Shown here one piece after another: positions 9,777-58,574 of a stretch of DNA of 64,000 nucleotides (positions are counted from its first letter, which is position 1; every line of letters begins with the position of its first letter). The DNA comes from Nocardioides panacis (GTDB lineage Bacteria > Actinomycetota > Actinomycetes > Propionibacteriales > Nocardioidaceae). The stretch is taken from positions 2,480,001-2,544,000 of the forward strand of contig NZ_CP077062.1 of assembly GCF_019039255.1 (NCBI RefSeq), given 5' to 3'. Under the pieces are notes generated by a model. That model was not told the DNA's origin. It made no database searches and saw only the letters and a program-made list of their open reading frames with translations. The translations under genes and the position numbers were made by a program.

Positions 9777-10924
9777 CTAGACCGGGAGCTCCAGCTCCCA
9801 CTCGGTGCCCTGCCCCGGCGCGGTCGTGACCCGGGCGGTCCCGCCCAGCTCCTCCACCCGGCCGTGGATCGACCCGGCCACCCCCAGCCGGCCCTCCGCG
9901 CGCGCCTCCTCGAGCCGGCCCTCGGCGATGCCCGGGCCCTCGTCGCGGACCGTCACCACCACCCGGTCGCCGAGCTCCTCGACCAGCACCCAGGCCGGCG
10001 CGTCCGTCGCGACGTGGGTGCGGACGTTGTCCAGGCAGGCGCGTACGACGGCCGCCAGCTCGTCGACCGCGCCGGCGGAGAGGAGCACCGCGTGCGCCGG
10101 AGCGGAGACCGTCACGGTGCGCGACTGCAGCCGGTTCAGCGCCTCCACGAGGTCGGCCCGCCCGGAGGCGGTGGCCGCCGTCGTGGCGTTGCCCTGCACG
10201 AGGGCGCGCAGCGCGGACTCCTGCTCCCCGGCCAGCCGCCCGAGCTCGGCGGCCTCCCCCCGAGCTCGGTGCCGCGCCGCTGGACCAGGGTGAGCACCTG
10301 CAGCACGCCGTCGTGCACGGCGCGCGCCAGCCGGGCGCGCTCGGCCATCGCGGCCGCGATCCGCTCGGCCTCCGCGCGCGCCTCGGTGGCCTCCCCGATC
10401 AGCGAGGTGCTGTAGCCCACGACCCCGGCGGCGAGCAGGAGCAGGAAGATGTTGCCCCAGGTGGTGCCGGTGGGGTCGGTGCGCACCGACAGGTCGATCA
10501 CCGACATCAGCACCGCGGCCGCGAGCCCGCCGGACCAGCCGCGGGCCACGGCCCAGGCGAGCACGGCGGCCATCACCCAGAAGGACGGCATCGTCGAGGC
10601 GTGCCGCTCGAGCATCGCCTCGGACTGTACGTAGGGCGTGGAGAGCAGGGTGGCCGCGGCGACGGCGAAGTCCGCGACGAGCAGCGGCAGCCCGCGGCGA
10701 CGCGGGGCGTCGTACGCCCAGGAGGCGAAGCCGGTCCAGCCGACGATGACGCCGACCACGACCCAGCCGGCGACCGGGTGCTCGAACTCCCGCCAGCGCG
10801 CGGCGTTGAGGGCCACCGCGTAGACCGCGACCAGCACCCGGAGCACCGCGAGCGCCCGGAACAGGGTGGTGTGCACCTGCTCGGCGACCGGGTCCAGCAG
10901 CCCGGTCCGCGCCCGTCGCGCCAT
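9777..10924 (-). CDS. Sensor histidine kinase (HisKA_3 type), frameshifted in this sequence
   Basis: This membrane kinase probably phosphorylates the NarL-type regulator at 7799-8467. Reading from ATG 10924, about five hydrophobic segments are followed by the phosphoacceptor box LARAVHDGVLQVLTL. The frame then breaks at a run of six C (10256-10261). Adding one base joins this to a second frame carrying the ATPase motifs ACLDNVRTHV (N box) and VRDEGPGIAEGR (G1). The repaired protein would be about 382 residues. The span (1148 bp) is one base short of a multiple of three. It starts 2 bp after plsC ends, so the two are probably co-transcribed. Confidence 0.85.
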
Positions 10925-10926
10925 CC

Positions 10927-11679
10927 TCAGGAGGCTTTGAGCCCGGTCGTCCCGGAGTCGGCCCCGGGCACGTCGGTGCCGTCGCCGGCCGGCTTCCTCG
11001 ACTCCTTGTCGAGGGCCTTGGCGCGGGTGGCGTACATGTCGACGTACTCCTGGCCGGAGAGCCGCATGATCTCGTACATGATCTCGTCGGTGATCGACCG
11101 CAGGATGAACCGGTCGTTCTCCAGACCCTCGTAGCGCGAGAAGTCCAGCGGCTTGCCGAAGCGCACGATCGGCCGCGTCACGGCGCCGAACTTCTTGCCG
11201 GGCGGGGCCACCACGTCGGTGCCCACGACGGCGATCGGGATGACCGGGACCTTGGTCTCCAGCGCCAGCCGGGCCACGCCGGTCTTGCCGCGGTAGAGCC
11301 GGCCGTCGTGGGACCGGGTGCCCTCCGGGTAGATGCCGAACAGGCCGCCCTCGCCGAGGATCCGGGTGGCCGCCGACAGCGCGCCCTCCGCGGCGGTGGC
11401 GCCGGACCGGTCGATGGGCACCTGGCCGGCGCCGGAGAAGAACTTCTTCTGGAACCAGCCCTTGATGCCCGGGGAGGTGAAGTACTCCGCCTTGGCGACG
11501 AACGTGACCCGCCGCGGCAGGGTCAGCGGCATGAACATCCAGTCGACGTAGGACAGGTGGTTGCTCGCCAGGATCGCCGGGCCCTCGGTCGGGACGTTCT
11601 CGGCACCCTCGGTCTGCGGGCGGAAGACCAGCTTCAGCAGAGGGCCGAGGAGCACCCACTTGAGCAACCAGTAGAACAA
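10927..11679 (-). CDS. plsC: 1-acyl-sn-glycerol-3-phosphate acyltransferase (PlsC family)
   Basis: The enzyme acylates lysophosphatidic acid, or a related acceptor, at the membrane. The 250-residue product has the acyltransferase motif NHLSYVDWMF (H-x4-D form), GQVPIDRSG, the PEGTRS box and VPIIPIAVVG-like strand VPVIPIAVVGTD. The N-terminus is hydrophobic (LFYWLLKWVLLGPLLKLVF). TTG 11679 is chosen because a perfect GGAGGAGG (11687-11694) lies 7 nt before it. The equivalent in M. tuberculosis order is Rv2182c. It sits directly before the histidine kinase. Confidence 0.9.
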   Translation of the reverse strand: MFYWLLKWVLLGPLLKLVFRPQTEGAENVPTEGPAILASNHLSYVDWMFMPLTLPRRVTFVAKAEYFTSPGIKGWFQKKFFSGAGQVPIDRSGATAAEGALSAATRILGEGGLFGIYPEGTRSHDGRLYRGKTGVARLALETKVPVIPIAVVGTDVVAPPGKKFGAVTRPIVRFGKPLDFSRYEGLENDRFILRSITDEIMYEIMRLSGQEYVDMYATRAKALDKESRKPAGDGTDVPGADSGTTGLKAS

Positions 11680-11869
11680 CGCCGGACCTCCTCCGTGCTC
11701 GTCCTGGGACCCGTCACCCGTCGTGCCGGTCCAACCGTGCGAAACCCTAGCCCCGCTACCGCCCGCGTGACACGATGCGTACGTCGGTCGGACCGGTCGA
11801 GACACGTCTCGGTCCCGCGCTCATTCAACACCACGCAGGCGCCCGCCGCGCACCTCCGAGGAGCTGTTC

Positions 11870-12640: not shown

Positions 12641-13147
12641 CCTCAGCCGACGACAGCCGTGACGAGCCCACACCGGGCACGCCGGACGGGAAAGACCTCC
12701 CGCTCGACGAGGACGCCGCCTGGCGCGCCATCGTCGAGAACTACGGGGCACGTCCCGAGCTCGGCCCGTCGGCGGATCCCGAGCCGCCGGTCGCCCCGCC
12801 GCCCGCCGCTCCCCCGGCCCGGTCCTCGCTGTTCGACCGCGCCTACCTGGACGCGCTGGCCGCCGAGCCCGACCGGACCGAGGCCTCCTGGTCCGACGAG
12901 GGCCACTTCGTCCCCCCCGGAGCCGCCCCCGGTGCCCGGCACCACGCCGGCCCGCCGGCTCGCCTGGATCGGCCTGTTCGGGGCCCCGGCCCTGATGCTG
13001 CTGGCCGTGGTCACCCGGCTGACCTTCCCGAGCTGGCTCTCGATGGGCCTGGTCGTCGCCTTCGTCGGCGGCTTCGTGTTCCTGGTCGCCACCATGGACC
13101 GGCCCGGCGACGACGGCTGGGGCGGGGACGACGGCGCCGTCCTCTGA
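12637..13147 (+). CDS. Conserved membrane protein, frameshifted in this sequence
   Basis: Starting at ATG 12637 the product has an acidic, Pro-rich cytoplasmic part that includes AWRAIVENYGARPELG and SSLFDRAYLDALAAEP. It then breaks frame at a run of seven C (12912-12918). Removing one C leads into two hydrophobic segments (WIGLFGAPALMLLAVVTRL and LVVAFVGGFVFLVATM) and an acidic Gly-rich tail (DDGWGGDDGAVL). The repaired length is about 169 residues. This layout is common in actinobacterial proteins of unknown function next to the esterase. Function is not known. Confidence 0.75.
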
Positions 13148-13261
13148 CCCTGCCCGTCGACCCACCCGGCTGGTCGGGCTCGTCGAGACCACTCTTAGGC
13201 TGGCCGCGCCCACCCACCGGTCGCGCACCGCCGAGACCACCCCGACCCCGTAGGAGTCCCC

Positions 13262-14507
13262 GTGCACGTGAGCGAGACCGTCGAGATCTCCGGTCACCTG
13301 ATCGACACCGGCATCCTGTCGCGGGTGCTCGACGACATCCGTGAGTACAACGGCGACTGGGTGATCGACAAGTTCGACGTCGGCCACGAGGCCGCCGACC
13401 TCTCGAGCGCGCGCATCACGATCTCCTCCGAGGACGACGAGGACCTGCAGCGCCTGCTGATGCGGCTGCAGACCCGCGGCGTGAACCAGGTGGACCCCGG
13501 CCAGGCCGAGACGGCCCCCTGCGAGCAGGACGGCGTCTTCCCGGACCACTTCTACTCCACGACCAACCTCGCCACCCGGGTGCGCCTCGAGGGTCACTGG
13601 GTGCCGGTCCAGAACCCCGAGATGGACTGCGGCCTGATCGCCGAGGGCAGCGGCCAGGACCTGCGCGTGTTCACGCTGCCGATGGCCGACGTCAACGCCG
13701 GCATGCAGGTCGTCGTGGGTGCCTCCGGCATCCGCGTCGACGTCCCCGCGCTCACCCGCGCCGAGGGCTCGTTCGGGTTCATGGAGTCCGACGTCTCCAG
13801 CGAGAAGCCCCAGGCCGTGCTGGTGCGCCAGGTCGCCGACGGCATGCGGGCCGCCAAGGCCGACGGCCAGAAGGTGCTGTGGGTCGGCGGGCCCGGCGTC
13901 GTACACACGGGGGGCGGCGCCGGCGATGGTCGCGCTGGTCGACGCGGGCTTCGTCGACGTGCTCTTCGCCGGCAACGCGCTGGCCACCCACGACATCGAG
14001 TCCTCGCTGTTCGGCACCTCGCTGGGTGTCGACCTGGCCCAGGGCCGTGGCGTCGAGCACGGGCACGAGCACCACATCCGCGCGCTGAACACCATCCGCA
14101 AGGCCGGCTCGATCCGGCAGGCGGTCGACTCCGGCGTGCTGACCGGCGGCATCATGCACGCGCTGGTCACGCACGACAAGGAGTACGTCCTGGTCGGCTC
14201 GGTGCGCGACGACGGCCCGCTCCCGGACGTCTACACCGACGTGATCGACGGGCAGCGGGCGATGCGTGCCAAGCTCACCGACGTCGGGTTCTGCCTGATG
14301 GTCGCGACCATGCTGCACTCGGTGGCCACCGGCAACATCCTGCCGGCGTCCATCCCGCTGGTGTGCGTCGACATCAACCCGGCCACCGTCACCAAGCTCG
14401 CCGACCGGGGCTCCTCGCAGGCGCGCGGCATCGTCACCGACGTCGGGCTGTTCCTCGAGCAGCTCGCCAGCGAGCTCGTCGAGGGCTACCGGACGAACCG
14501 GGGCTGA
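13262..14507 (+). CDS. Archaeal-type ornithine cyclodeaminase homologue (TIGR00300, LOR/SDH domain), frameshifted
   Basis: The protein matches the TIGR00300 family, whose characterised Methanococcus member converts ornithine to proline with NAD. The N-terminal LOR/SDH-like domain (GHLIDTGILSRVLDDI ... ARITI) leads to the segment KVLWVGGPGVVHTG, where the frame is lost at six G (13909-13914). Removing one G continues as GAAPAMVALVDAGFVDVLF, then FAGNALATHDIESSLFGTS and the VCVDINPATVTKLADRG region. The repaired protein is about 414 residues. It starts at GTG 13262 behind AGGAG. It lacks the arginine dihydrolase domain of cyanobacterial ArgZ/AgrE. Substrate is inferred from the family only. Confidence 0.85.
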
Positions 14508-25128: not shown

Positions 25129-25134
25129 GGTGCC

Positions 25135-26332
25135 ATGCCGATCATCGTTGAAAGCAGCCGTTCGAACTCCGACCTGTTCACCTCGGTCAGCGGGGCGGAC
25201 GCCCAGGTCGTGGCCAGTCTCGAGGAGCTCAAGCGGCTCCTCGCGGACTCCCCGAACGAGTACGCCATCGTCCTGGGTCCCGCGGTGGACCTGGAGGCCG
25301 CGGCCGCCCTGGCCGACATGCTGCGGGTCACCCGTCCGACGATCAGCGTCATCCTGATCCGCCGGCGCGTGGACACCATCGTCCTCGCGGAGGCCCTGCG
25401 CTCGGGCATGCGCGAGGTCGTCGACGAGCGCGACCTCACCGGTCTCGGCGCGGCGATCCACCGCGCCCACCAGGTCTGGACCGCGCTCACCGGTGCACCG
25501 GCGGCCGCCGCCGGTGGCGACCGCGGCACCCTGATCACGGTGTTCTCCCCCAAGGGCGGGGTCGGCAAGACCACCCTGGCGGTGAACCTCGCGCTGGCCC
25601 TCTCCGCCCGCGGCGCCCACCGGGTCTGCCTGGTCGACCTGGACCTGGCGTTCGGCGACATCGCGATCACCCTCCAGCTGTTCCCGGCCCGCACGATGGC
25701 CGACGTGGTGCACCTCGAGAGCGGTCTCGACTTCGGCGTGTTGGAGCCCCTGCTCACGACGTACAACGAGAGCGTCAGCGCACTGGTCGCCCCGGTGCAG
25801 CCGGACGCGAAGGACACCATCCCGCCCCCCCTGATCGGCCGGGTGCTGAGCCTGCTCAAGGGGCACTTCGACTTCGTGGTCGTCGACACCTCCCCCCGCG
25901 TTCGACGAGTACGCCCTCCAGGCGTTCGACGAGACCGACGAGATGCTGCTGGTCACCACGCTCGACGTGCCGACCCTGAAGAACGTCAAGGTCGCGGTCG
26001 AGACGCTCGACCTGCTCAACTTCCCGCGCAGCCACCGCCACCTGATCCTCAACCGCGCCGACGACAAGGTCGGGCTGACCCCGGACAAGGTGGAGAGCAC
26101 CCTCGGCATGACCATCGCCGCCGCGATCCCCACCTCCTCCCAGGTGGCGCACGCCACCAACTCGGGCGAGCCGATCGTGAGCGCCCAGCCCAAGCACGCG
26201 GTGAGCCAGGCGATCGTCGCCCTCGGCCAGCGGCTCGCCAGCAGCTCCGGCGTGCCGAGCGACGCGGTGAGCTCAGCGGTTCCCGCCCCCAAGCGGTCCT
26301 TCCTCCGCCGAAACAGCAGGTCGTCCTCGTGA
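25135..26332 (+). CDS. cpaE: CpaE-like pilus assembly ATPase, frameshifted in this sequence
   Basis: The N-terminal 125 residues resemble a receiver domain (YAIVLGPAVDLEAAAALADM, VILIRRRVDTIVLAEALRSG). A MinD/ParA-type ATPase follows with TVFSPKGGVGKTTLAVNLAL and VCLVDLDLAFGDIAI. The frame breaks at six C (25892-25897). Removing one C continues DTSPAFDEYALQAFDETDEM and LVTTLDVPTLKNVK up to the stop at 26332, giving about 398 residues. Without this correction the frame runs on into cpaF and mimics a CpaE-CpaF fusion. CpaE localises the Tad machine. The stop overlaps the cpaF GTG by 4 bp. Confidence 0.9.
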
Positions 26333-27723: not shown

Positions 27724-27727
27724 CCCG

Positions 27728-29669
27728 GTGACCACCGACCGCGGACGCGGGTTCCGGCGGCCGCTCCTCGCCCTCGCGGCGTGGGTGGTCGTCGGCGTCA
27801 CGCTGTCCTCCTCCCCCGCCCTGGCCGCCGAGGGGACGATCGACCACGTCGAGACCCGCGGCGGCAAGGTCCAGGTCCTCTACTCGCTCCCCGGCTCCGG
27901 CGACTCCGCACCCGACCTCGGGACCGTCGGCCTGAGCCTCGACGACACGCCCCTCGTAGCCAAGGCCGAGCTGGCCACCGGCGCGGCCCAGGCGGTCCGG
28001 CGGACCACGGTCCTCGCCATCGACGTCAGCGACAGCATGAAGGGCGCCAAGTTCGCGGCGGCCAAGCAGGCGGCCCAGGTGTTCCTGGACACCGCACCCT
28101 CCGACCTGTACGTCGGGATCGTGACCTTCGCGGGCGGCGTGACCGTCGCCCAGGAGCCCACCCTGGACAGGTCCGCGGCCACCGCGGTCGTCGATGGTCT
28201 CCAGCTGTCCTACGGCACCCTGCTCTACCCCGGGATCCAGAAGGCCGTCTCCCTGGGAGGGAAGGCAGGCAGCCGCAGCATCATCGTGCTCTCGGACGGC
28301 CGGGACACCTCCGACGTGGCGCTGGCCTCGGTGACCGCGGGCATCAAGAAGGCCGGGGTCAAGGTCGACGTCGTGGCCCTCGCCCAGTCCTCGTCCGAGG
28401 AGGCGCTGCTCCAGCCGCTGTCCGACGCCGGCGAGGGCTCCGTCATCAGCGAGAGCAACCCGGCCGCTCTCGGCCAGGTGTTCGCCGGCGAGGCGGACCT
28501 CCTGGCCAAGCAGATCCTGATCACCGCACCCCTGCCGACGGACGGCACCCCCGAGGGCACCCTGGCGGTCTCGGTCGTCGCCGGCGGCGAGACCTACACC
28601 GACGAGGCGTTCGTCACGCTGCCCGCGCCCAAGACCACGGTCGCCTCCCCGACCGACCTGCACCCCGCCGACCCCGGGACCACGGTCTCCAGCACCGTGA
28701 TGCTGGCCGGCCTCGGCGCGCTCGGCCTCGGCGCCCTCGTCCTGGTCCTCGCGGTCAGCGGCGCCACGACGTCCCGGCGCGAGTCCGTCGAGAGCCGCAT
28801 CGACGTCTACACCCGCACCGGCAGCACCCGCCGCATCGGCAACCGGCCGGACGCCCCCCGCGCAGGGGATCTCCGCGCAGGCCGTCGGCATCGCGTCCAA
28901 GGCGCTGAAGAGCAACCGTGGTTTCGAGGTCAAGCTCGGCGACCGGCTGGACGCGGCGGGGATGTCCCTCAAGCCGGCCGAGTGGCTGCTCCTGCACGCG
29001 GGCGTCGCCTTCACGGTGACGGCCCTGACGCTGGCCCTGACCGGCGCGAACCTGGTCCTCAGCCTGGTCGGGCTGATCCTCGGGATCCTGGTGCCGTGGG
29101 TGTTCCTCGGCTCGAAGCGCTCCCGGCGGCTCAAGGCGTTCAACGCGCAGCTCGCGAGCTGCCTGCAGCTGATCGCCGGAAGCCTCCAGGCCGGCCTGTC
29201 GCTGGCCCAGGCCCTGGACACCGTGGTGCGGGAGGGCACCGAGCCGCTGTCCGGCGAGTTCCGGCGGGCGCTCGTCGAGACACGCCTGGGCGTGCCGATC
29301 GAGGACGCCCTGAGCTCCATCGGTGAGCGCATGGAAAGCGCGGACTTCTCCTGGACCGTGATGGCCATCCGCATCCAGCGCGAGGTGGGCGGCAACCTGG
29401 CCGAGCTGCTGCTGAACGTCGCGGCCACCCTGCGCGAGCGCGAGTACCTCCGTCGCCAGGTCAAGTCGCTGTCGGCCGAGGGCCGGTTCTCGGCGTACAT
29501 CCTGCTGGGTCTTCCCGTGGTCGTGCTCATCTTCCTGATGGTCTCCAACCCGGTCTACGTGCAGCCGCTGATCAGCACGCCGATCGGATGGGTCCTGCTC
29601 GCGGGTATGACCATCTTGATGACGCTGGGTGCGTTCACTATGAAGAAGCTCGTCAAGGTGGAGGTCTGA
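27728..29669 (+). CDS. tadB: VWA domain-TadB fusion, Flp pilus platform protein, frameshifted
   Basis: The product starts with a signal peptide (RRPLLALAAWVVVGVTLSSSPALA-AEG). A von Willebrand A domain follows with an intact MIDAS: DVSDS at 99-103, then LSYGTLLYPGI and LSDGRDTSDVAL. After a membrane segment (LAGLGALGLGALVLVLAVSG) the frame is lost at six C (28854-28859). Removing one C continues as the TadB part: SLKPAEWLLLHAGVAF, the T2SSF core LASCLQLIAGSLQAGLSLAQ and four membrane helices. The repaired length is about 646 residues, roughly twice a normal TadB. GTG 27716 is an alternative start. The stop overlaps tadC (TGATG). Confidence 0.87.
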
Positions 29670-30616
29670 TGACGACGGTCGTGCTGATGCTCGGGATCAC
29701 CGGCATCTTCGCCGGTATCTTCCTCTCCTTGACCGCTGTGGGTGTCTTCACGAACGAGGAGCGCGGCATCTCGAAGTCCCTGGTGGTGTTGGACGCCTTT
29801 TCCAACGCACCGTCCTCGATGCAGGAGGAGCTCGACCCGTCTTTCAACGACCGGGTGCTCAACCCCATGCTGTCCCGCTTCACCAGTCTCGGTAAGCGCC
29901 TCACTCCCCACGACTATGCCGAGCGGATCCAGCACAAGCTGGACGTGGCCGGCAATCCGGTCGGGTGGAACGTCGACCGCATCGTCTCGCTGAAAGTGAT
30001 CGGGATCGGCGGCGGTGCCTTCGTAGGCATGCTGCTCGCCCTGCTCCTCGGTGCCGGGCCGGTGAAGATCCTCGGTGTGATCGTCGTGGGAGCCGTGCTG
30101 GGCTACTTCGGTCCGAACTACTACATCTACCAGAAGGGCTACGACCGCACGCAGCAGATGCAGCGGGACCTGCCCGACGCCCTCGACCTGCTCTCGATCT
30201 CGGTGGAGGCCGGCCTGGGGTTCGACGCCGCGCTGGCCCAGGTGGCCCGCAACACCACCGGGCCGCTGGCCCACGAGCTCGCCAGGGTGCTGCAGGAGAT
30301 GCAAATCGGTCTCGGCCGGGCGAGCGCACTGCGAGCGCTCGGCGAGCGCAGCTCACTCGCGGACCTCCGTTCGTTCACGTCCGCGATGGTGCAGGCCGAC
30401 GCGTTCGGCATCCCGATGTCCAAGGTCCTGCGGGTCCAGTCCGACGAGATCCGGCTCAAGCGCCGGCAGCGGGCCGAGGAGAAGGCGCAGCAGGTGCCGG
30501 TCAAGATGATGATCCCGCTGGTGCTCTTCATCCTTCCCACCCTGTTCATCGCGGTGCTGGGACCGGCCGTCATCGGCATGCTGGGCGCGTTCAGCTCCGG
30601 CGGAGCGATGAATTGA
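29669..30616 (+). CDS. tadC: TadC-like type II secretion system F family protein
   Basis: This 315-residue inner-membrane platform protein pairs with TadB. It has an N-terminal membrane helix (LGITGIFAGIFLSLTAVGVF), two more in the middle (VIGIGGGAFVGMLLALLLGA, VIVVGAVLGYFGPNYYIY), the T2SSF domain with DLPDALDLLSISVEAGLGFDAA and ERSSLADLRSFTSAMVQADAFG, and a C-terminal helix ending near IGMLGAFSSGG. ATG 29669 overlaps the tadB stop by one base, and its own stop overlaps the kinase TTG by 4 bp, so pilus and signalling genes are translated together. Confidence 0.92.
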   Translation: MTTVVLMLGITGIFAGIFLSLTAVGVFTNEERGISKSLVVLDAFSNAPSSMQEELDPSFNDRVLNPMLSRFTSLGKRLTPHDYAERIQHKLDVAGNPVGWNVDRIVSLKVIGIGGGAFVGMLLALLLGAGPVKILGVIVVGAVLGYFGPNYYIYQKGYDRTQQMQRDLPDALDLLSISVEAGLGFDAALAQVARNTTGPLAHELARVLQEMQIGLGRASALRALGERSSLADLRSFTSAMVQADAFGIPMSKVLRVQSDEIRLKRRQRAEEKAQQVPVKMMIPLVLFILPTLFIAVLGPAVIGMLGAFSSGGAMN

Positions 30617-32211: not shown

Positions 32212-32849
32212 AGTCAGCCGTGTGCTGTTGATCGACGACCACGACCTGATCCGCAACGGGCTGGCACGCGCCTTCGAGCGGCACGACGACTTCGAGGTCG
32301 CCGGGCAGGCAGGTTCGGTCGCGGAGGGCCTGCGCGAGTTCAAGTCGCTCAAGCCCGACGTGGTGATCACCGACGTGCGGCTGCCCGACGGGACCGGGCT
32401 GGACCTGGTGCGGGAGATTCGTGCGGCCGGGCACGAGACGGGGGTCGTGGTGCTGACGATGTACGCCGGTGACCAGCAGCTGTTCGCCGCGCTGGAGGCC
32501 GGTGCGTCCGCCTTCGTGGCGAAGGACGCCCCCCTCCGACGAGGTGGTGGCGGCCGCCCGGCACGCGATGGTGTCGCCGCGCTCGTTCACCGCCGCCGAC
32601 CTCGCGGGCGCCATGCGCCGTCGGATGACGCCGGCCGGGCCGCAGCTGACCCAACGGGAGTCCGAGGTCCTGAGCCTGCTGGCCCGCGGCTTCAGCGTGT
32701 CGGCGATCGCCCGGTCGATCTTCGTCAGCGACTCGACCGCGAAGACGCACATCTCGAAGATCTACGAGAAGCTCGGCGCCTCCAACCGGGCCGACGCGAT
32801 CATGAAGGCGGTCCGGTCCGGTCTCCTGGCCGACGACCTGCAGGCCTGA
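32204..32849 (+). CDS. NarL/LuxR-family response regulator of the tad locus, frameshifted
   Basis: The product begins MTEVSRVLLIDDHDLIRNG and has the phosphoacceptor in VVITDVRLPDGTGLDL, Thr/Lys switch residues in VVLTMYAGD and FVAKDAP. The frame then breaks at six C (32529-32534). Removing one C restores SDEVVAAARHAMVSPRSF and the LuxR helix-turn-helix (LTQRESEVLSLLARGFSVSA, STAKTHISKIYEKLG), giving about 214 residues. It overlaps the kinase gene by 8 bp. The partner kinase is certain from context. Its targets are probably the pilin promoters downstream, which is inference. Confidence 0.88.
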
Positions 32850-33822: not shown

Positions 33823-34916
33823 TCAGAGGGCCAGCAGGTCCCCCAGGACACGTGAGGCACCCGCCCAGTCGGGCAGGCCGTCGGGGCGCACCCGCTCCCG
33901 CGGCGCGGACAGCAGCCGGACGAGTGCGGCGGCCACCTCCGCGACGCCGTGCACCACCTCGCCGCGCCCGAGCAGGGTCTCCGGTGCGCCCCCCGGAGTC
34001 CCCCACCACCACCGGCAGCCCGCACGCCTGCGCCTCCAGGAACACGATCCCCCCAGGCCTCGGGCTCCAGCCCCAGCAACCGGGTCCGGCACGGCATCGC
34101 GAACACGTCCCCCGCGTCCGTGTAGGCAGGTACGTCGCCCCAGGCCACCCCACCGGTGAGCACCACGGCGTCGCGCAGCCCCAGGGAGCCCGTCAGCCGC
34201 TCGAGGCGCTCCCGGTCCGGCCCGTCGCCGACGAGCAGCAGCCGGGCCGTCGGGTGCCGGTCGAGCACCGCCGGCCAGGCGCGGAGCAGGGTGTCCTGTC
34301 CCTTGCGGCGGACCAGCCGGCCGGTGCACACGACCACCGGCGCGTCGCCGAGGCCCAGCCGCCTCCGGACCTCCGCGCCCCCGCAGCCGGCGTGGAAGCG
34401 GTCCGGGTCGACGCCCGGCGAGAGCCGCACCATCCGTGCGGCAGCGCCGGGTGAGAGCGCCGGGGCGATCCGGTCGCGGCACCACTCGCTGACGTAGGTC
34501 AGCACGTCGACCGAGTCACCGACCCGTCTGAGCAGGGGCCGGGCGAGCGGCACCGTGGCCCACCACACCTCGTGGCCGTGGGTGAGCGCGACGATCCGCC
34601 GGGCCCCGGCGCGCCGCAGTGCCGGCGCGAGCAGCCCGAGCGGGGAGCTGGCCCCGAACACCACCCGGTCGCAGCCGTGCCGCCGCATCACCTCGACGAC
34701 CCGGCGCGCGACGGGCCGCGTCGGCAGCAGCGTCGACGCGGGGTCCCGGTAGACCGGGAACGCGAGCCCGGCGTCGTACGCCTCGGCGCCCGGCATCGCG
34801 GCGGTGTAGACGACGACCTCCTCGGGCGGCATCCCCTGGCACAGCGCCAGCACGAACGACTCGATCCCGCCGCGACGGGTCGGGAAGTCGTTGGTGACGA
34901 CCAGGACCCGGCTCAC
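33823..34916 (-). CDS. pimB: GDP-mannose-dependent phosphatidylinositol mannosyltransferase (PimB-like), two frameshifts
   Basis: This GT4 glycosyltransferase is expected to add the second mannose to phosphatidylinositol mannoside, or a related lipid acceptor. It starts SRVLVVTNDFPTRRGGIESF and has LTHGHEVWWA and VCTGRLVRRKGQDTLLRAWP. The donor-binding region is split: one extra C at 34049-34054 and another at 33989-33994 break it. Removing both gives GLEPEAWGIVFLEAQACGLP and VVVGDSGGAPETLLGRGEVV, the typical E-x7-E motif region. The repaired protein is about 363 residues. GTG 34916 overlaps the M48 peptidase stop. Its place matches Rv2188c. Confidence 0.88.
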
Positions 34917-42928: not shown

Positions 42929-44486
42929 GTGCGTCCGGCGACGCCGGCGGCCCCGACGACCCGGGCGCGCCCGACGACCCCGCCGTCCGCCCGCCGCCGC
43001 ACCTGGCAGGTGCCGGCCCTCCTGCTGCTCGGCACGCTCCTGGTCCAGGCGGCCTGGATCCTCGCCCTGCCTCCCTTCCGCGGCACCGACGAGTTCGACC
43101 ACGCCTACCGCGCCGCCTCCGTCGCCCGGGGTGAGTGGCGGCTGCCGACGCAGGCCGCCGAGCACGGCCGTGGCGGTCTGGTCACCGTTCCCCGAGGGCT
43201 GGTCGAGGCGGCCTCCCCGGTGTGCTCGAGCTACCTCTACACCGGCCACGACAACTGTTACCCGGTCGCGGAGGCCGGCCACGGGAACGTCGAGGTGGCG
43301 ACGTCCGCGGGGTCGTACAACCCGGCGTTCTACTGGGTCATCGGCACGGCCGCCCGCCCCTTCGACGGCGCCCCCGCGCTGTACGCCATGCGGATCGCGA
43401 ACGCCCTGCTGTGCGCCGCCTTCGTCGCGCTCGCCGGCTGGGCCACCGCTCTCTGGGCGCGGACCGTGTGGCCGTTGCTCTCCGTGGCGGTGGCGATCAC
43501 GCCCGTGGTGTTCTTCAGCCTCTCCGTGGCCGCACCGAACGGACTCGAGATGGCAGCGGCGCTGAGCCTCTGGACGGCGCTGCTGGGGATCGTCCGGACC
43601 GGTGACGACGATCCCGTGCGAGCCCGGCTGCTCCTGGTGGCGCTGGTCGCCGGGGTGGTGCTCGCACCGCTGCGCCTGCTGGGGCCGCTGTGGCTCGCCC
43701 TGACCGCGCTCGCCTTCCTCTGCGCCCTCGGGGTCGGACGCTTCGGCTCCCTGCTCCGGAACCACCGACGGCTCGCACCGGCGCTGGTCCTCGCCTGGGG
43801 TGCGTCCGTCACGGTGGCGCTCTGGTGGACGAGCTTCGGGGGGGATCAGCGTGGAGAAGGCCCCGGTCTCCGAGACCGGCGCGCCCGTCGGCACCGACGC
43901 CTCCACGCTGGGGCAGGTCCCGCTCTGGTTCTTCCAGGGCGTCGCGGCGTTCCCACGACGGATGGACTCCGCCCCGGCGGTCGTCTACGTGACGGTCGGG
44001 CTGGTGACCCTCGGGCTGATCGGTGTCGGCCTGGCCACCGCGACCAGGCGGCTCCGGGTCACCACGGTGCTCGTGCTCGCGGTGGCGGTGCTGGTGCCGG
44101 TCGCCGTGACGGAGGCGACCGTCGGCACGGGCGGCCCGTTGTGGCAGGGGCGCTACGGCCTGCCGTTCCACATCGGGGTGGTCCTGCTCGCCGGGCTGGC
44201 CCTCGAGCGGCGGGCGCACTGGCACCATCTGGCGCCGGTGCTGCTGCTGGTGGCCGGGGTCTGCCTGGCGGTCGGACAGGTGGTCTCCCCGGTCCAGGTG
44301 CTCCGGCACGAGCTGGCCACCAGCCCGCTGCGGGACTCCGCCTCCTGGGTGCACCTGTCGGTGTGGTGCGTCGGGCTCCTCGTGCTGGCCGGACTCGCGT
44401 GCTACGCCTGTGCGCTGGCCACCTGGCGCCGTACGACGACCGTCGGCGGCGTGGCCGGCTCCGGACCGGTCAGACCGCGGAGCTGA
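42929..44486 (+). CDS. DUF2142-family membrane protein, frameshifted
   Basis: The product starts with a basic Pro/Thr-rich tail and the first membrane helix ([20 protein letters not shown]). The DUF2142 hallmark [20 protein letters not shown] follows, then several more helices. The frame breaks at seven G (43838-43844). Removing one gives [20 protein letters not shown] and five to six further helices ending PVRPRS. The repaired length is about 518 residues. DUF2142 proteins resemble GT-C glycosyltransferases and are often tied to surface polysaccharides. The 3' end overlaps the convergent trpD by 17 bp. Confidence 0.8.
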
Positions 44487-45507: not shown

Positions 45508-45567
45508 CGGGTTCTCCTCGCAGGGCGTACGTCGATCAGCGGACCGACCCACCCGGCCGGGTCGAGG

Positions 45568-45984
45568 TCAGCGGGTCGCCGGGACCCGCGGGGCGAGCAG
45601 GTGCGCGACGGCCTCCGCCAGCTGCAGCGGGTCGATCGGTTGCGGCACGGCGCCGTCGGCCCGGGACCAGGTCGCCAGCCACGCGTCCTGCGGGCGGCCG
45701 GTCAGCACCAGGATCGGCGGGCACCGGTAGATCTCGTCCTTCAGCTGCTTGGCGATGCCCATCCCGCCGGCGGGCACGGCCTCACCGTCGAGGATCGCCA
45801 GGTCGACCGTCCCGGAGTCCATCTGCTGGAGCACGACGGGCAGCGTCGCCACCTCGACGTACTCCGCCTCGGGGAGGTCGGGGTGCGGGCGGCGCCCCAG
45901 GGCCAGGATCACCTGGGAGCGGGTGTGGGCGTCGTCGCTGTAGACGAGGATCTTGAGCGGCGCGGCGGCGGAGGCGTTCGTCAC
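45568..45984 (-). CDS. Degenerate receiver-domain protein
   Basis: The 138-residue product is a single receiver fold without an output domain. The acidic pair (ILVYSDDAHTR), the Asp in VDLAILDGEAVP and the Thr in ILVLTGRPQD are present. The Lys that normally follows beta-5 is replaced: the sequence is VPQPIDP where KPIDP is expected. Phosphorylation may therefore not switch it normally. It sits 10 bp after ctaG and 60 bp before trpD. Its partner is unknown. Confidence 0.82.
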   Translation of the reverse strand: MTNASAAAPLKILVYSDDAHTRSQVILALGRRPHPDLPEAEYVEVATLPVVLQQMDSGTVDLAILDGEAVPAGGMGIAKQLKDEIYRCPPILVLTGRPQDAWLATWSRADGAVPQPIDPLQLAEAVAHLLAPRVPATR

Positions 45985-48535: not shown

Positions 48536-49620
48536 GCAGCCACGACCACGAGGGCATCCCGGGCAACGAGCACGCCGTGAGCACCACGGCGTCCTCCACC
48601 CCGGCCGTCCGCGAGGAGCACGCCGACCCGATCGCCGACCCGGGCCTGCACGAGCACCAGCCGCGCCCCACCGACGTCGACGAGAAGGCCGAGAAGCGCG
48701 CCGAGCGCCAGATCGCGACGCTGTTCGGGCTGTCCGCGCTGTTCGCGGTGCTGTTCGTCGTCTCCTACTTCGTCTTCCACATCGGCGAGGACCCGACGAT
48801 CATCGCCGGGTACGGCGCCTCGAACGTCGCGCTCGGCGTCTGCCTCGGCATGTCGCTGCTGCTGATCGGCATCGCGGCCATCCAGTGGGCCCGCAAGCTG
48901 ATGAGCGACGTCGAGATCGTCGAGATGCGGCACCCCGCCGCGTCCAGCGACGAGGACCGCGCCGACGCGATCACTGCCCTCAACCAGGGCATCGACGACT
49001 CCGGCATCGCCCGGCGTCCGCTGATCCGCAACTCCATGCTCGGCGCGCTCGGCATGCTCGGCCTGCCGACCATCGTGCTGCTGCGCGACCTGGGTCCGGC
49101 TCCGGGCGACAAGCTCGCGCACACGGTGTGGGCCAAGGGCATGCGGGTGGTCAACGACGTCGCCGGCACCCCGATCAAGCCCGAGGAGGTCGAGATCGGC
49201 CAGCTGATCAACGGCGAGCCGGCGGTCTTCTACGAGGAGGTCGACGGCGAGCCCAAGTTCGAGGGCGTCACCCTCCAGCAGGCCAAGGCCAAGGCGGCGG
49301 TCATCCTCGTGCGCATGAAGCCCAGCGACATCACTCCGGCCCCCGGCCGTGAGAACTGGGGCGTCGAGGGGATCCTGTGCTACTCCAAGATCTGCACCCA
49401 CGTCGGGTGCCCGATCTCGCTGTGGGAGCAGCAGACACATCACCTGCTCTGTCCCTGTCACCAGTCGACCTTCGACCTGGCTGACAACGCAAAGGTGATC
49501 TTCGGCCCGGCTGCCCGGCCCCTGCCTCAGCTTCCGCTGAAGGTGGACTCTGAGGGCTACCTCGTCGCGCAGCACGACTTCGACGAGCCGGTCGGCCCCA
49601 GCTACTGGGAACGTGGGTGA
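48532..49620 (+). CDS. qcrA: Rieske iron-sulfur subunit of the bc1 complex
   Basis: The 362-residue product has an acidic N-terminal tail, three hydrophobic segments (ATLFGLSALFAVLFVVSYFV, ASNVALGVCLGMSLLLIGI, LGALGMLGLPTIVLL) and a C-terminal Rieske domain. The 2Fe-2S ligands are in CTHVGCPISL and CPCHQSTFDL, with the disulfide cysteines in place. Three helices instead of one is typical of actinobacterial QcrA. It overlaps qcrC by 4 bp (GTGA), and qcrB starts at its end. Confidence 0.95.
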   Translation: MSSHDHEGIPGNEHAVSTTASSTPAVREEHADPIADPGLHEHQPRPTDVDEKAEKRAERQIATLFGLSALFAVLFVVSYFVFHIGEDPTIIAGYGASNVALGVCLGMSLLLIGIAAIQWARKLMSDVEIVEMRHPAASSDEDRADAITALNQGIDDSGIARRPLIRNSMLGALGMLGLPTIVLLRDLGPAPGDKLAHTVWAKGMRVVNDVAGTPIKPEEVEIGQLINGEPAVFYEEVDGEPKFEGVTLQQAKAKAAVILVRMKPSDITPAPGRENWGVEGILCYSKICTHVGCPISLWEQQTHHLLCPCHQSTFDLADNAKVIFGPAARPLPQLPLKVDSEGYLVAQHDFDEPVGPSYWERG

Positions 49621-51404
49621 CAAGGATGAGCACAGCGACCACCAACGGCAAGACGGCGGCCACGCCCTCGAAGCCGAGCAAGGTGGCGGGCGTCGCCACC
49701 TGGATGGACGAGCGGGTCGGCCTGGCCGGCCTCGCGAAGAAGCAGGTCCGGAAGGTCTTCCCCGACCACTGGTCCTTCATGCTCGGCGAGATCGCTCTGT
49801 GGAGCTTCGTCGTGCTGCTGCTGACCGGCACCTTCCTCACGCTCTGGTTCAAGCCGAGCATGGGCGAGGTCGTCTACAACGGCTCCTACGACCAGCTCCG
49901 GGGCGTGTCGATGTCGGAGGCCTACGCCTCCACGATCGACATCTCCTTCGACGTCCGTGGCGGCCTGCTCATGCGGCAGATGCACCACTGGGCCGCGATG
50001 CTCTTCGTCGCCTCGATGCTCGTGCACCTCATGCGGGTGTTCTTCACCGGCGCCTTCCGCAAGCCCCGTGAGCTCAACTGGGTGATCGGCTGCCTGCTGC
50101 TGATGCTCGGCACGCTCGAGGGCTTCACCGGCTACTCGCTGCCCGACGACCTGCTCTCGGGCACCGGCATCCGGGCCGCAGACGGCTTCGTGAAGTCGAT
50201 CCCGGTGGTCGGCACCTACGTCTCGTTCTTCCTGTTCGACGGCGAGTTCCCGGGTGACGCGATCATCTCGCGGCTGTACACCGTGCACGTGCTGCTGATC
50301 CCCGGGGTGCTGCTGGCGCTGATCGGCGCGCACATGCTGCTGCTGGTGTTCCACAAGCACACCCAGTGGCCCGGGCCCGGTCGCACCAACGACAACGTGG
50401 TCGGCTACCCGCTGCTCCCCGTCTACACCGCCAAGGCCGGTGGCTTCTTCTTCATCGTCTTCGGCGTGACGGCGCTGCTGGGTGGTCTGGCGACGCTGAA
50501 CCCGGTGTGGCGCTTCGGTCCCTACGACCCCTCCCAGGTCACCGCGGGCTCCCAGCCCGACTGGTACATGGGCTGGCCGGACGGCGCGCTGCGGATCTTC
50601 CCGGGCATCGAGACGCACCTGTGGGGCTTCACGCTGAGCTGGAACGTCTTCCTGCCGATCATCGTGCTCCCCGGCGTGATGTTCACGATCCTGCTGATGC
50701 TGCCGTTCCTGGAGTCCTGGATCACCGGGGACAAGCGCGAGCACCACCTGCTCCAGCGCCCGCGCAACGCTCCGAACCGGACCGCGACCATGGTCGCCCT
50801 CATGACGTTCTACGGCATCCTCTGGGGCGCCGGCGGCAACGACATCCTGGCGATCAAGTTCCACCTGAACCTCAACGCGATCACCTACTTCAACCGGGTG
50901 GCCGTGTTCGTGGGACCGGTGCTGGCGTTCTGGATCACCCGCCGCTGGTGCATCTCCCTCCAGCGCGCCGACCAGAACCGGTTGCTGCACGGCTACGAGA
51001 CCGGCGTGCTGATGCGCTCCCCCGAGGGTGCGTACGCCGAGAAGCACCTGCCGATCTCCAGCGACGAGGCCTACACGCTCACCGCCCGGGACCGCGACGT
51101 CGTGGTGCCGATGCCGAGCGAGGCCGACGAGAACGGTGTCGCCAACCGCAAGGTCCGGGCCATGCGGCTGCGCTCGCGGCTGTCGAGGTTCTGGGTGGGC
51201 AGCAACATCCAGAAGCCGACCCGCGAGGAGCTCGAGGAGGCCCGGCACCACGCCGAGCACGAGCTGGCCGTCCACGAGGACGGGCACCAGCACCTCACCG
51301 GCGGCGACTACGAGGGTGACTACGAGCTCGACGGCCAGCCCGCCGACGGTCACCAGTTCGACGGCCGGCACGGCATCGAGGGCGAGGAGCTCCGCAAGCA
51401 CTGA
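49617..51404 (+). CDS. qcrB: Cytochrome b subunit of the bc1 complex
   Basis: The 595-residue membrane protein has the heme b ligands in RQMHHWAAMLFVASMLVHLM and IGAHMLLLVFHKHTQ, and the quinol-site motif is PDWYMGWPDG-like (QPDWYMGWPD). The C-terminal 100 residues are hydrophilic and rich in His, Glu and Asp (HHAEHELAVHEDGHQHL), an actinobacterial extension. GTG 49617 overlaps qcrA; ATG 49626 is an equally plausible start. A perfect 13-bp terminator follows, ending the operon. QcrB is the target of drugs such as telacebec in mycobacteria. Confidence 0.95.
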   Translation: MTRMSTATTNGKTAATPSKPSKVAGVATWMDERVGLAGLAKKQVRKVFPDHWSFMLGEIALWSFVVLLLTGTFLTLWFKPSMGEVVYNGSYDQLRGVSMSEAYASTIDISFDVRGGLLMRQMHHWAAMLFVASMLVHLMRVFFTGAFRKPRELNWVIGCLLLMLGTLEGFTGYSLPDDLLSGTGIRAADGFVKSIPVVGTYVSFFLFDGEFPGDAIISRLYTVHVLLIPGVLLALIGAHMLLLVFHKHTQWPGPGRTNDNVVGYPLLPVYTAKAGGFFFIVFGVTALLGGLATLNPVWRFGPYDPSQVTAGSQPDWYMGWPDGALRIFPGIETHLWGFTLSWNVFLPIIVLPGVMFTILLMLPFLESWITGDKREHHLLQRPRNAPNRTATMVALMTFYGILWGAGGNDILAIKFHLNLNAITYFNRVAVFVGPVLAFWITRRWCISLQRADQNRLLHGYETGVLMRSPEGAYAEKHLPISSDEAYTLTARDRDVVVPMPSEADENGVANRKVRAMRLRSRLSRFWVGSNIQKPTREELEEARHHAEHELAVHEDGHQHLTGGDYEGDYELDGQPADGHQFDGRHGIEGEELRKH

Positions 51405-51510: not shown

Positions 51511-52747
51511 TCAGGGGCGTCCCGAGACGCGAAGCGCCGTACGGCAGGCGTACCAGAGCAACGCAACCAGGAGGAGGTTTCGAGCCACCAGCACCACGAG
51601 TGCTGCGGCTCCCCCCCTCACGACCCACGTGCACCAGCGCCGCGTAGAGCCACGGGTACAACCCGTGTGACAGCAGGGCGACCATGATCAGGGCTCCTGT
51701 CCAGCGGGCCAGAGCACGTCGGGTGGGTCCGACGACGGCGAGACCGGCGATCGCGGTGGGCAGCAGCCACAGCAGGTACTGGGGGCTCAGCACCTTGCTC
51801 GTGCAGAGAAAGCCAGCTGTTGCGGCCAGGCTCGCCCAGACCAGCGCGTCGATGGAGCCCGCGCGTCCGGTCCTGGCCAGCCGGGTCCACAGCACCGCGA
51901 GGAAGACCAGCAACCCCACGGTCAGGATCGTGGAGAGTCCGAGCAGCGCCGGGACACCCGGACCGGTGATCTCGTAGGACTTGGAGGGGGAGAAACGCAC
52001 CTGGTACGACGCCGGGTCGAGGTGTCGGGCCAACATCACCGGGGTCGCGGCGACTGACTCGACCTGCAACCCCCGGTCCGCCTGGTACGCCAGAGGCGAC
52101 CACACGCGGGAGGCGCCGGCCGCCACCAGGGTCACGAGAACTGTCGCGGCTCCTGCGCCGACAAGCACCAGCAGGGACCCCGTGCGTCGACTGGACCGTG
52201 CCAGCAGGGGTGGGACGAGTAGGACCGGCCACAGCTTGATACAGGCCGCCAGCGCGAGCAGGAGTGCGGCCAACCGCGACCGACCGGCCGCGACCAGCAC
52301 GACCATTCCGACGAGCACACCGGGGATCAGGTCGAACCGCACGTAGCTCAGACCGCCCAGGGCCGGGAGCGCCACGAGCCAGGCAGCGACGGCGGTACGC
52401 CGCTGTGGCAGCGCCTGGCGTTGCAGCAGCGCCGTGAAGGCCGCGTCGACCGCGAGCAGCACGACGACGAAGAGGAATCCGTAGGACCAAGGCGCGTGCA
52501 ACACCAGCGAGAGACGCCAGGGCAGGGCAACCACGGCGACGGCCGGGAGCGGGTACTCCGGCATCGTCCGCACCAGTCCGACCTCGCCCAGGTGGCGCAG
52601 GCTTGCCGAGAAGTAGCCCACGTCGCCGAGGACGTCCCGCTCGGGGCCGAAGATCAGGGCCAGCGCGGCGACGCGGGTCAGCATCCAGACCAGCGCCAAC
52701 CTGGCACTCGACGTCCATGGCGCCGCACTCACGTCAGCACCCGACAC
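51511..52747 (-). CDS. DUF2029/GT87-like membrane glycosyltransferase, frameshifted
   Basis: The product has ten or more hydrophobic segments and the motif MPEYPLPAVAVVALPWRLS near the N-terminus, followed by LPALGGLSYVRFDLIPGVLV and LLALAACIKLWPVLLVPPLL, as in polyprenol-phosphate-mannose transferases. The frame breaks near the end at seven C (51611-51617). Removing one gives GREGGAAALVVLVARNLLLV and a stop at 51511, so the last helix is restored (about 411 residues). GTG 52747 has GGGGGAG before it. A mannosyltransferase role in lipoglycan synthesis is plausible. Codon use is less GC-rich than neighbours. Confidence 0.8.
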
Positions 52748-54174: not shown

Positions 54175-54212
54175 TCCTGCACCGTGAACCGCCCTCAACC
54201 GGGCAAACCGGA

Positions 54213-54238: not shown

Positions 54239-54245
54239 CCTCGGG

Positions 54246-54644: not shown

Positions 54645-56416
54645 CGGTCGGTGCCCTCCGTGTCGATGGGGTGTCCCAGCTGTTCCTCGATGTGCGCCTG
54701 GCGGCCGCCCACGGACGGCGCGTCGATCAGGTCCTGCTCGTCACCGAGCGCGTCGTTCTCGGCCATCTCCATCGCCGCGACCTCGGGGTGGTGCAGGTCG
54801 AAGGCCGGCGACTCGGAGCGGATCCGCGGGATCGAGGTGAAGTTGTGCCGCGGCGGCGGGCTCGAGGTGGCCCACTCCAGCGAGCGGCCCCAGCCCCACG
54901 GGTCGTCGATGCCGACCGGCTCGGTCTTCGAGGACTTGTAGACGTTCAGCAGGAACGGCAGCGTCGAGGCGCCGAGCAGGAACGACCCGATCGTGGAGAT
55001 CTGGTTGAGCGTCGTGAAGCCGTCGGAGGCGAGGTAGTCGGCGTACCGGCGCGGCATGCCCTCCACTCCCAGCCAGTGCTGGACCAGGAACGTGGTGTGG
55101 AAGCCCACGAACAGCAGCCAGAAGTGCACCTTGCCGAGACGCTCGTCGAGCATCTTGCCGGTCATCTTCGGCCACCAGAAGTAGAAGCCGGCGAACATCG
55201 CGAACACCACGGTGCCGAAGACGACGTAGTGGAAGTGCGCGACCACGAAGTAGGAGTCCGAGACGTGGAAGTCCAGGGGCGGGCTGGCCAGGATGATGCC
55301 GGTCAGGCCGCCGAACAGGAACGTCACGAGGAACCCGACCGACCACAGCATCGGGGTGTCGAAGGACAGAGATCCCCCCCACATCGTGCCGATCCAGTTG
55401 AAGAACTTCACGCCCGTCGGTACGGCGATCAGGAACGTCATGCCGGAGAAGAACGGCAGGTCGACCGCGCCGGTCACGAACATGTGGTGCGCCCACACGG
55501 CGACGGACAGCACGGCGATGCTGACGGTGGCGGCGACCAGCCCGACGTAGCCGAACACCGGCTTGCGGCTGAACACCGGCAGGATCTCGGTGATGATCCC
55601 GAAGAACGGCAGCGCGATGATGTACACCTCGGGGTGCCCGAAGAACCAGAACAGGTGCTGCCACAGGATCGGTCCGCCGTTCGCGGCGTCGAAGATGTGC
55701 GCCCCGAACTGACGATCGGCCTCCAGGGACAGCAGCGCGCCGGCCAGGATCGGGAACGCGATCAGCACGAGCAGGCTGGTGACCAGCGTGTTCCACACGA
55801 AGATCGGCATCCGGAACATCGTCATGCCGGGCGCGCGCATGCAGATGATCGTGGTGATGAAGTTGACCGCTCCGAGGATCGTGCCCAGACCGGCCATCCA
55901 CAGGCCCATGATCCAGAGGTCACCCCCGACGCCGGGGCTGCGCACCGCGTCGGACAGCGGGGTGTAGCCCGTCCAGCCGAAGTCGGCGGCGCCCTGCGGG
56001 GTCAGGAAGCCGGACCCGGCGATGATCCCGCCGAACAGGAACAGCCAGTAGCTGAACATGTTCAGCCGCGGGAACGCGACGTCGGGCGAGCCGATCTGCA
56101 GCGGCATGATCACGTTGGCGAAGCCGAAGAACAGCGGCGTCGCGAACAGCAGCAGCATGATCGTGCCGTGCATCGTGAACAGCTGGTTGTAGAGCTCGTC
56201 GTTGACGACCTGCTGGCCGGGGAACGCGAGCTCGGAGCGGATCAGCATCGCCATCAGGCCGGCGATGAGGAACCAGGCGAACGACGTACCGAGGTAGAGC
56301 TTTCCGATCACCTTGTGGTCGGTGGTGGTGATGACCTTGACGATCTGCTGACCCAGCGTGTTCTGCTTCGTGGCGCTGGTGCTCTGGAACTGAGCACCCT
56401 CGGCTGTCGCGGTCAC
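54641..56416 (-). CDS. ctaD: Cytochrome c oxidase subunit I
   Basis: The 591-residue catalytic subunit holds heme a and the a3-CuB centre. Ligand motifs include [15 protein letters not shown] (low-spin heme His), [14 protein letters not shown] (CuB His with cross-linked Tyr), [15 protein letters not shown] and [11 protein letters not shown] (both heme His). About twelve helices are seen. A hydrophilic C-terminal tail of 75 residues is typical for the phylum. GTG 56416 overlaps the ctaC stop. In M. tuberculosis ctaD lies elsewhere; here it is inside the cluster. Confidence 0.95.
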
Positions 56417-57303
56417 TGGCCCGCTCCTGTCGACTGGTCGTTGTCCTGGACTTCGTTCTGGAGGCCGCTCTGCTGGCCGACCTCGGAGCCACCCAGCGCC
56501 GGACCGATGTTGCCCTGCTTCTTGAGGTCCGCGAGGTGGGCGGCGTACGCGTCCTCGCTCACGACCTTGACGTCGAAGAGCATCCGGGAGTGGTAGACGC
56601 CGCACAGCTCGGCGCAGCGGCCCACGAACGTGCCCTCCCGCGTCGGCGTGAAGCTGAAGTGGTTCTGCCGACCGGGGATCACGTCCATCTTGAACAGGAA
56701 CGCCGGGACCCAGAACGAGTGGATGACGTCCGGCGAGCGCAGCTGGATCTCCACGCGCTTGTTCACCGGCAGGTACAGCGTCGGCCGGTCGGCGGTGGTG
56801 CCGCCCTCGTAGACCGTCGTGGACCCGTCGAGGGCGGCGTCCTTGTCGTAGTTGAACGTCCAGGACCACTGCTGGCCCACGACCGTGACGGTGTGGTCGG
56901 CGTTGCCGGTCTCGCTCGCGTCGGCCAGCACGTCGTTCTGGACGGTCACGGTGAAGAAGAAGAAGACCAGGACCATCACGACCGGCGCGACCGTGTAGAG
57001 GATCTCGATCGGCAGGTTGTAGCGGGTCTGGATCGGGATCTCGTCGTCACGGCGGCGGCGGAACTTCACGCACGCGTAGCCGATCAGCCCCCACACCAGG
57101 ACGCCGACGATCATCGCGGCGAGCCAGGAGCCCATCCAGAGTCCGTGGATCCCGGCGGTGCGGTCGGTGACGCCCTCGGGCTGTGCGAGCCGCTTGATCG
57201 AGTCCGTCTCCGCGGCGGAGCACGACCCGAGCAGCAGCATGCCCGCCGAGCCCAGAGCGATCAGGCCGGCGCTGCGCACGCGCGGGGGGAGTTGCAGACT
57301 CAA
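56413..57303 (-). CDS. ctaC: Cytochrome c oxidase subunit II (CuA)
   Basis: The 296-residue product has a lipoprotein-like signal ([15 protein letters not shown]), two membrane helices ([40 protein letters not shown]) and a cupredoxin domain with [19 protein letters not shown] and the CuA motif [12 protein letters not shown]. It receives electrons from QcrC. TTG 57303 is chosen because AGAGAGG lies 8 nt upstream; another TTG at 57324 is possible. It is first in ctaC-ctaD-ctaF and divergent from the aminotransferase gene. Confidence 0.93.
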
Positions 57304-57397
57304 GATCAGAGCCTCTCTGTCCAAGAAGCGGGTCAGGGGGAACGTTACTACTGACGCGACAGCGTTCTGCGGGTAGGTGGGGCGGTAGTTTCACGGT

Positions 57398-58574
57398 GTG
57401 ACAAATGCGACGGGCTCCCCCGGCTCGCCCGGCCCCGCGGCAGGGGGGGCCCGCGACCTCCACGTATCTCGACACGGTGTCCACCGAGGCGCTGCACCCG
57501 GCTGCCCGGGAGACCCTGCTGAGCGCCCTGGACCGGGGCTGGGCGGACCCGCTGCGGCTGCACGGCGCCGGCCGCGAGGCCCGGCTGCTGCTCGACAACG
57601 CCCGCGAGGTCGTGGCCGCCCTGCTGGGTTCCCGGCCGGACGAGGTCAGCTTCACCTCCTCGGGCACGGCGGCCGTGCACCTCGGCGTGCTGGGCCTGCT
57701 GCTGGGCCGCCGGCGGGTCTCCCCCCGTCTGGTGCACACCGCTGTGGAGCACTCCGCCGTGCTGTCGGCGGGCGCGTGGTGGGCCCGGCACTTCTCCGGT
57801 ACGGCGGACGGGGTGCCCGTGGACGCGCAGGGGCACGTGCGGCTCGACGCCCTGGACGACGCCCTCGCGCAGGGGGCCGGCGTGGCCGCCGTACAGGTGG
57901 CGAACCCGGAGGTCGGCACGCTGCAGCCCTGGCCGGAGGTCGCCCGGACGGCCGCACGGCACGACGTGCCGGTGTTCGCCGACGCCTGCGCGGCCGCCGG
58001 GCGGGTCGACCTGCCCGACGGGTGGGCCGCGGCCGCCGCGTCGGCCCACAAGTGGGGCGGCCCGGCGGGCGTCGGCGTGCTGCTGGTGCGCAAGGGCGCG
58101 AGGTGGCGGGCGCCGTTCCCCACCGACGACCGCACCGACGCCCGGGTGGCCGGCTTCGAGAACGTCCCGGCCGCGCTGGCCGCGGCCGCCGCGCTGCAGG
58201 CCGTCGTCGCCGAGCGCACCGTGGTGGCCGCCCGCCAGCACGCGCTCGTCGACCGGCTCCGGGCCGCCCTGCACGCGGTGCAGGACGTGGACGTCGTCGG
58301 CGACCCGGCGGCCCGGCTGCCGCACGTGCTGACCTTCTCCTGCCTGTACGTCGACGGGGAGTCCCTGGTCACCGAGCTGGACCGGCGCGGGTTCGCGGTC
58401 GCGTCGGGGTCGGCGTGCACCGCGAGCAGCCTCGAGCCGTCGCACGTGCTGGCCGCCATGGGCGCACTCACCCACGGCAACGTGCGGGTCTCGCTGACCC
58501 GCGACACGACCGAGGCGGACGTCGACCGGCTGGTGGCCACCCTGCCTGATGTCCTCGCGCAGCTGCGGCCCTGA
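57398..58574 (+). CDS. Cysteine desulfurase-like class V aminotransferase, frameshifted near the start
   Basis: The PLP enzyme probably extracts sulfur from cysteine. After about 14 residues the frame breaks at seven G (57443-57449). Removing one gives PATSTYLDTVSTEALHPAAR and continues intact to 58574. Motifs include VSFTSSGTAAVHLGVLGLLL, HTAVEHSAVLSAG, the PLP-Lys in SAHKWGGPAGVGVL and the Cys loop ASGSACTASSLEPSHVL. The repaired length is about 391 residues. A TAGTTT box at 57386-57391 and no ribosome site suggest a leaderless GTG start. tusA follows after 12 bp. Confidence 0.88.

Follow-up and report, generated by a model that had tools for sequence, protein, structure and literature searches.

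Homopolymers in long-read assemblies are described, in two reports, as mainly losing bases (PMC12007338, PMC11649196). For a mycobacterial 5G reporter, real slippage is described as +1 in 67% of the sequenced isolates (PMC10159617). The authors of the GeneTack survey expect singleton frameshifts to be sequencing errors and not true indels (PMC3711429). Here we analysed a window of 64 kb in which eleven G/C runs of six or seven bases had been claimed to break ten genes, together with samples of its source genome and of related genomes. Comparison of these sequences leaves us with little doubt that the breaks are single-base errors in the deposited sequence, an artefact and no biological switch.

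The window (G000:C1:2480001-2544000, G000 being the source genome) belongs to a single contig of 4.90 Mb and has a G+C content of 72%. It holds 22 G/C runs of at least six bases, 0.2% of its bases, and all eleven runs named in the original prediction are present at the coordinates below. These comprise four of the six seven-base runs and seven of the sixteen six-base runs; of the eleven unlisted runs, six lie within one unbroken frame and five in noncoding stretches or at their edges. The listed runs are given with their genes and, in brackets, the lines of evidence, where ab initio denotes a codon-usage segmentation blind to runs:

10256..10261, minus strand: C6 run, one-base-lost break in a sensor histidine kinase (DUF5931 and HATPase_c), about 9780-10930 (homology, alignment and ab initio)
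12912..12918, plus strand: C7 run, extra-base break in a small protein with no Pfam match, about 12643-13144 (homology, alignment and ab initio)
13909..13914, plus strand: G6 run, extra-base break in a LOR/SDH - ArgZ-like protein, about 13199-14504 (homology, alignment and ab initio)
25892..25897, plus strand: C6 run, extra-base break in a ParA/MinD-like ATPase of a Tad-type pilus locus, about 25129-26329 (homology and alignment; ab initio after the threshold was relaxed)
28854..28859, plus strand: C6 run, extra-base break between the VWA and T2SSF portions of a single protein, about 27701-29666 (homology and ab initio)
32529..32534, plus strand: C6 run, extra-base break between the receiver and the LuxR-type domain of a response regulator, about 32102-32846 (homology, alignment and ab initio)
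33989..33994, minus strand: C6 run, second extra-base break in a GT4-type glycosyltransferase, about 33826-34928 (homology; missed ab initio)
34049..34054, minus strand: C6 run, first extra-base break in the GT4-type glycosyltransferase, about 33826-34928 (homology and alignment; missed ab initio)
43838..43844, plus strand: G7 run, extra-base break in a DUF2142 membrane protein, about 42929-44483 (one relative and ab initio)
51611..51617, minus strand: C7 run, probable extra-base break in the C-terminal region of a GT87-type protein, about 51513-52717 (tail in one relative; missed ab initio)
57443..57449, plus strand: G7 run, possible break in the N-terminal region of a class-V aminotransferase starting at 57398 or 57405 and ending at 58574 (GTG start; missed ab initio)

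Predicted ORFs from the syntenic stretches of six relatives were searched against the window with tblastn, the site positions not being supplied, and matches in two adjoining frames were returned at eight of the eleven sites (10256, 12912, 13909, 25892, 28854, 32529, 33989 and 34049). DNA alignment succeeded at seven of the ten runs given to it (10256, 12912, 13909, 25892, 28854, 32529 and 34049); the relatives shown there keep one frame throughout, and relative to that frame the window carries one base too many at six of the runs and one too few at 10256. At 28854 the DNA-level alignment is poor, yet both halves share one frame in three relatives (G003, G001 and G012), and at 33989 the gene is uninterrupted in all four relatives examined. 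The site at 43838 has a single open frame in G001 only, with identities of 50% and 36%. The other-frame tail at 51611 resembles one relative's C-terminus (L154, from G001), and four of the five loci shown gave no clear match to that tail. At 57443 a conserved GTG start implies a shift that would touch the N-terminus only; as written, the ORF at 57405-58574, which begins with ATG, is open across the run, so a break in this gene is not required. Nine of the eleven claimed frameshifts are therefore supported by relatives with a single open frame, with a weaker case at 51611 and no need of a break at 57443, and the claim that repair always rejoins two conserved halves is too strong for these two. 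The count of ten affected genes is borne out, 33989 and 34049 falling in the same gene, and so is the direction, with an extra base at ten sites and a lost one at 10256 alone.

The homology scan also returned candidates that we rejected. At 40731 a relative's ORF extends upstream over an oppositely coded neighbour, and the match of the G005 ORF begins at 40820. At 55994 the window ORF is whole and a junction without a run lies at the matching place in G003, so that this break belongs to G003; that genome, a single contig, has its own break at L016:12168 (G003:C1:327168), in an oxidase subunit I homologue and at no G/C run of five or more. The signal at 45557-45663 arises where the N-terminal alignment of a single relative overlaps. 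Several 'short' junctions (e.g. 16231, 20262, 29665 and 58813) look like overlapping neighbours; 58813, the only one checked by family, lies between a TusA and a Glyphos_transf match.

Other features of the window were recorded alongside. A Tad/Flp-type pilus locus at 25129-30613 carries consecutive ParA-like, T2SSE (CpaF-like), VWA-T2SSF and T2SSF genes, two of which contain listed breaks; beyond the compared relatives, the best matches of the CpaF-like protein are from Pimelobacter (72%), Kineosporia (68%) and Nocardioides (68%), which would tentatively place G000 in the Propionibacteriales. Respiratory genes for cytochrome b and cytochrome oxidase subunit I, at 49617-51401 and 54647-56395, are both unbroken. 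At 4121-4178 and 3581-3699 lies an element about 26 bases long (GCCGCCAGAGGCGCCGGGTCGGCGG and variants), which is dispersed through the genome; it is often tandem, with 32-base spacing, occurs in both orientations, has 30 matches in 1.34 Mb of G000 and also gave matches in G005 and G006.

The ab initio scan of the window detected six clear breaks at its first setting and seven once the threshold was lowered from 45 to 40 bases; all seven are among the eleven listed sites, which gives a recovery of seven in eleven. Across 1.34 Mb of the 4.90 Mb of G000, 52 clear breaks were found at G/C runs of at least six, 49 with an extra base. Besides the seven of the window, these breaks were seen in a spaced sample of 40 stretches of 20 kb (30 in 800 kb, 28 extra-base), in the 76 kb adjoining the window (four) and in a later sample of twenty stretches (11 in 400 kb, 11/11 extra-base). 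An identical scan of 1.12 Mb from six relatives gave a single break at a G/C run of at least six. Junctions away from runs of six numbered seven in G003 (two at runs of five), two in G015, two in G010 and G005 together, none in G012 and one in G001, in addition to the one at a run in that genome. The window is thus not special in kind, as the same breaks occur elsewhere in G000. Its break density is about three times that of the rest of the sampled genome (P 0.009), the window having been chosen for density; a uniform error does not predict this excess, and it counts against the error reading.

We compared breaks of all classes from the first samples, the 64-kb window excluded, with the relatives. 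This set holds 55 breaks, of which three were dropped because a stretch ended close by or the pieces were short; among the 52 compared, homologues covered both sides of the break in 13 cases and not in the other 39, and the listed relatives were in one frame in 13/13. For family naming, 20 pieces from 13 sampled breaks were searched against Pfam and 20 pieces, some of which came from these breaks too, against NCBIfam, several being without a match. Of the three run breaks in the opposite direction, one (L175) aligned poorly to its relative and 10256 is another. Exact seven-base G/C runs reach 49 per Mb in G000. In two genomes of the same genus the figures are 2 and 7 per Mb, which makes these runs 7-25 times commoner in G000, and the excess is also present outside genes. 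In the comparison of run lengths with related genomes, as proposed in the original prediction, the runs of the aligned relatives are mostly shorter or interrupted.

Two breaks outside the window fall in genes that a cell is expected to need. The single copy of ispG in G000 is split at a G/C run, at model position 263/265, and ispG is in one frame in all 18 relatives that have it (G007 gave no match). The sole NF002730-type copy of nadE, encoding NAD synthase, is present as pieces covering model positions 4-369 and 365-676. Among the eleven relatives above the cut-off, the other eight having weaker matches and being left out, nadE is whole in one frame in ten and cut by contig ends in the eleventh (G002). 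In each of these two genes the five relatives shown are all in frame at the run, with five bases against six in G000; one relative, L199, has GGGGGG at the nadE run and is still in frame. A search of G000 for HMG-CoA reductase gave no match and hence no sign of a mevalonate bypass. Both ispG and nadE are expected to be essential, and a cell in which neither is intact should be unable to grow; they are probably essential in the source organism too, and the simplest reading is then an error in the written sequence.

A second class of breaks has no G/C run. In the first 876 kb there were 16 non-run breaks, 13 of them extra-base, and eight of these 13 had TGGAAG or CTTCCA at the junction. As this link was spotted post hoc, the later twenty stretches served as a held-out check, in which both non-run breaks (2/2) were at TGGAAG, chance proximity to the motif being about 1.4% of positions. 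In all, ten of the 15 non-run extra-base breaks in G000 lie at TGGAAG, nine of the ten reading C[G/A]TGGAAG:

L122:6474, TGGAAG extra-base break, no G/C run
L124:14097, TGGAAG extra-base break, no G/C run
L158:1905 and L158:3746, TGGAAG extra-base breaks, no G/C run
L164:7378, TGGAAG extra-base break, no G/C run
L173:8950, TGGAAG extra-base break, no G/C run
L179:3627 and L179:19549, TGGAAG extra-base breaks, no G/C run
L211:18204, TGGAAG extra-base break, no G/C run
L219:7578, TGGAAG extra-base break, no G/C run

For two of these ten a comparison with relatives was possible; the relatives lack one base there and keep a single frame. When six-mers were counted in different genomes, TGGAAG was not clearly in excess (363 per Mb in G000 against 323 and 377), and therefore only a small fraction of TGGAAG sites can be errors; in the same comparison the frequency of CGTGGAAG was 80 against 60 and 50. 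A fixed short motif fits a systematic read-out error, perhaps at a modified base, better than replication slippage. The TGGAAG breaks might even mark a site-specific DNA base modification that disturbs single-molecule basecalling, a speculative idea that we consider rather unlikely; were it true, assembly errors at TGGAAG would betray a methylation specificity that nobody intended to measure.

Among the alternatives, true mutation survives best, with replication slippage at G/C runs really having broken many genes in a mutator or decaying genome. Actinobacterial NucS is described as correcting substitutions and not frameshifts, and mycobacterial G runs as slipping, often by +1 (PMC10159617); in the window, breakage also seems to increase with run length (4/6 sevens, 7/16 sixes). 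Slippage would nevertheless have had to split the only copies of ispG and nadE, and it does not explain the TGGAAG class. NucS is moreover present in G000 as it is in the six relatives searched, and these relatives, although they share the repair gene, gave a single break of this kind in 1.12 Mb. We therefore regard this explanation as very improbable.

Contingency-type phase variation, in which the runs would switch genes on and off within the population, is known at G/C tracts of several bacteria and, as reported in PMC10159617, at a C run of the glycerol kinase gene glpK in Mycobacterium tuberculosis. The runs here are short, at six or seven bases, and the tracts are not kept, the relatives at the seven aligned window sites and at ispG and nadE having mostly shorter or interrupted ones. 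The genes hit form a cross-section including biosynthesis, enzymes and regulators, and are not confined to dispensable or surface-related genes, while the FGGY (glycerol-kinase-like) gene of the window, at 5380-6849, has no G/C run of at least six. The argument that housekeeping-type genes are hit was the better of those first raised, although its strongest cases, ispG and nadE, lie outside the window. Phase variation has next to no chance of being the explanation. The same holds for programmed ribosomal frameshifting or transcriptional slippage restoring the frame, as homopolymers are known slippage sites but the programmed transcriptional slippage described in PMC3711429 concerns runs of at least eight, mainly of A or T, the relatives compared need no shift and have one frame at the compared sites, and dozens of unrelated genes would require shifting in one species.

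An error in the deposited sequence thus remains the best explanation, and it is the genome-wide spread, the near-absence in relatives, the essential-type genes and the motif class that jointly lead to this verdict. As with systematic indels, the run-linked breaks are spread across the sampled stretches of G000, are tied to sequence context and are indifferent to gene function, sole copies of ispG and nadE included. A read-out or consensus step would have added one base to some G/C runs, rarely removing one, and would also have added a base at one short motif, TGGAAG, genome-wide; basecalling or consensus is the probable cause, and probably hundreds of genes are consequently read as broken. The sequencing or polishing error first proposed is accordingly upheld, on stronger evidence (spread, relatives and the split ispG and nadE) than it was given. 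The bias towards added bases in G/C runs, presented as the mark of such an error, is weak and not decisive, as real slippage in mycobacteria often adds a base too; its direction even counts against the error reading, because the long-read papers describe mainly losses.

G000 is filed as one contig and 99.96% complete. Extrapolated to the whole genome, our counts correspond to about 190 false frame breaks within reach of detection and perhaps 300 in all, and studies of pseudogenes, gene loss or metabolism on this record would be misled. The completeness score hides the breaks; an excess of seven-base G/C runs, or split sole-copy essential genes, reveals them. The artefact is ordinary in kind and deserves a flag on the record.

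The closest counterparts are the long-read assemblies of the Kastor study (PMC12007338) and of a high-G+C comparison (PMC11649196), in which, as in G000, homopolymer single-base indels split genes that are whole in relatives. Those accounts describe platform differences within G/C homopolymers and insertions at certain short k-mers; G000 differs in its bias to extra bases and in TGGAAG as the k-mer class. The singleton frameshifts of the GeneTack survey (PMC3711429), as described there, likewise have a whole homologue elsewhere and a break that is unshared, whereas G000 has many breaks, most of them in one context, the G/C run. Frameshifts at G/C runs in a high-G+C actinobacterium are also described for glpK and other genes of Mycobacterium tuberculosis (PMC10159617). 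There, however, limited loci are reported to vary within cultures, whereas in G000 essential-type sole copies are split in the consensus and the relatives lack the runs.
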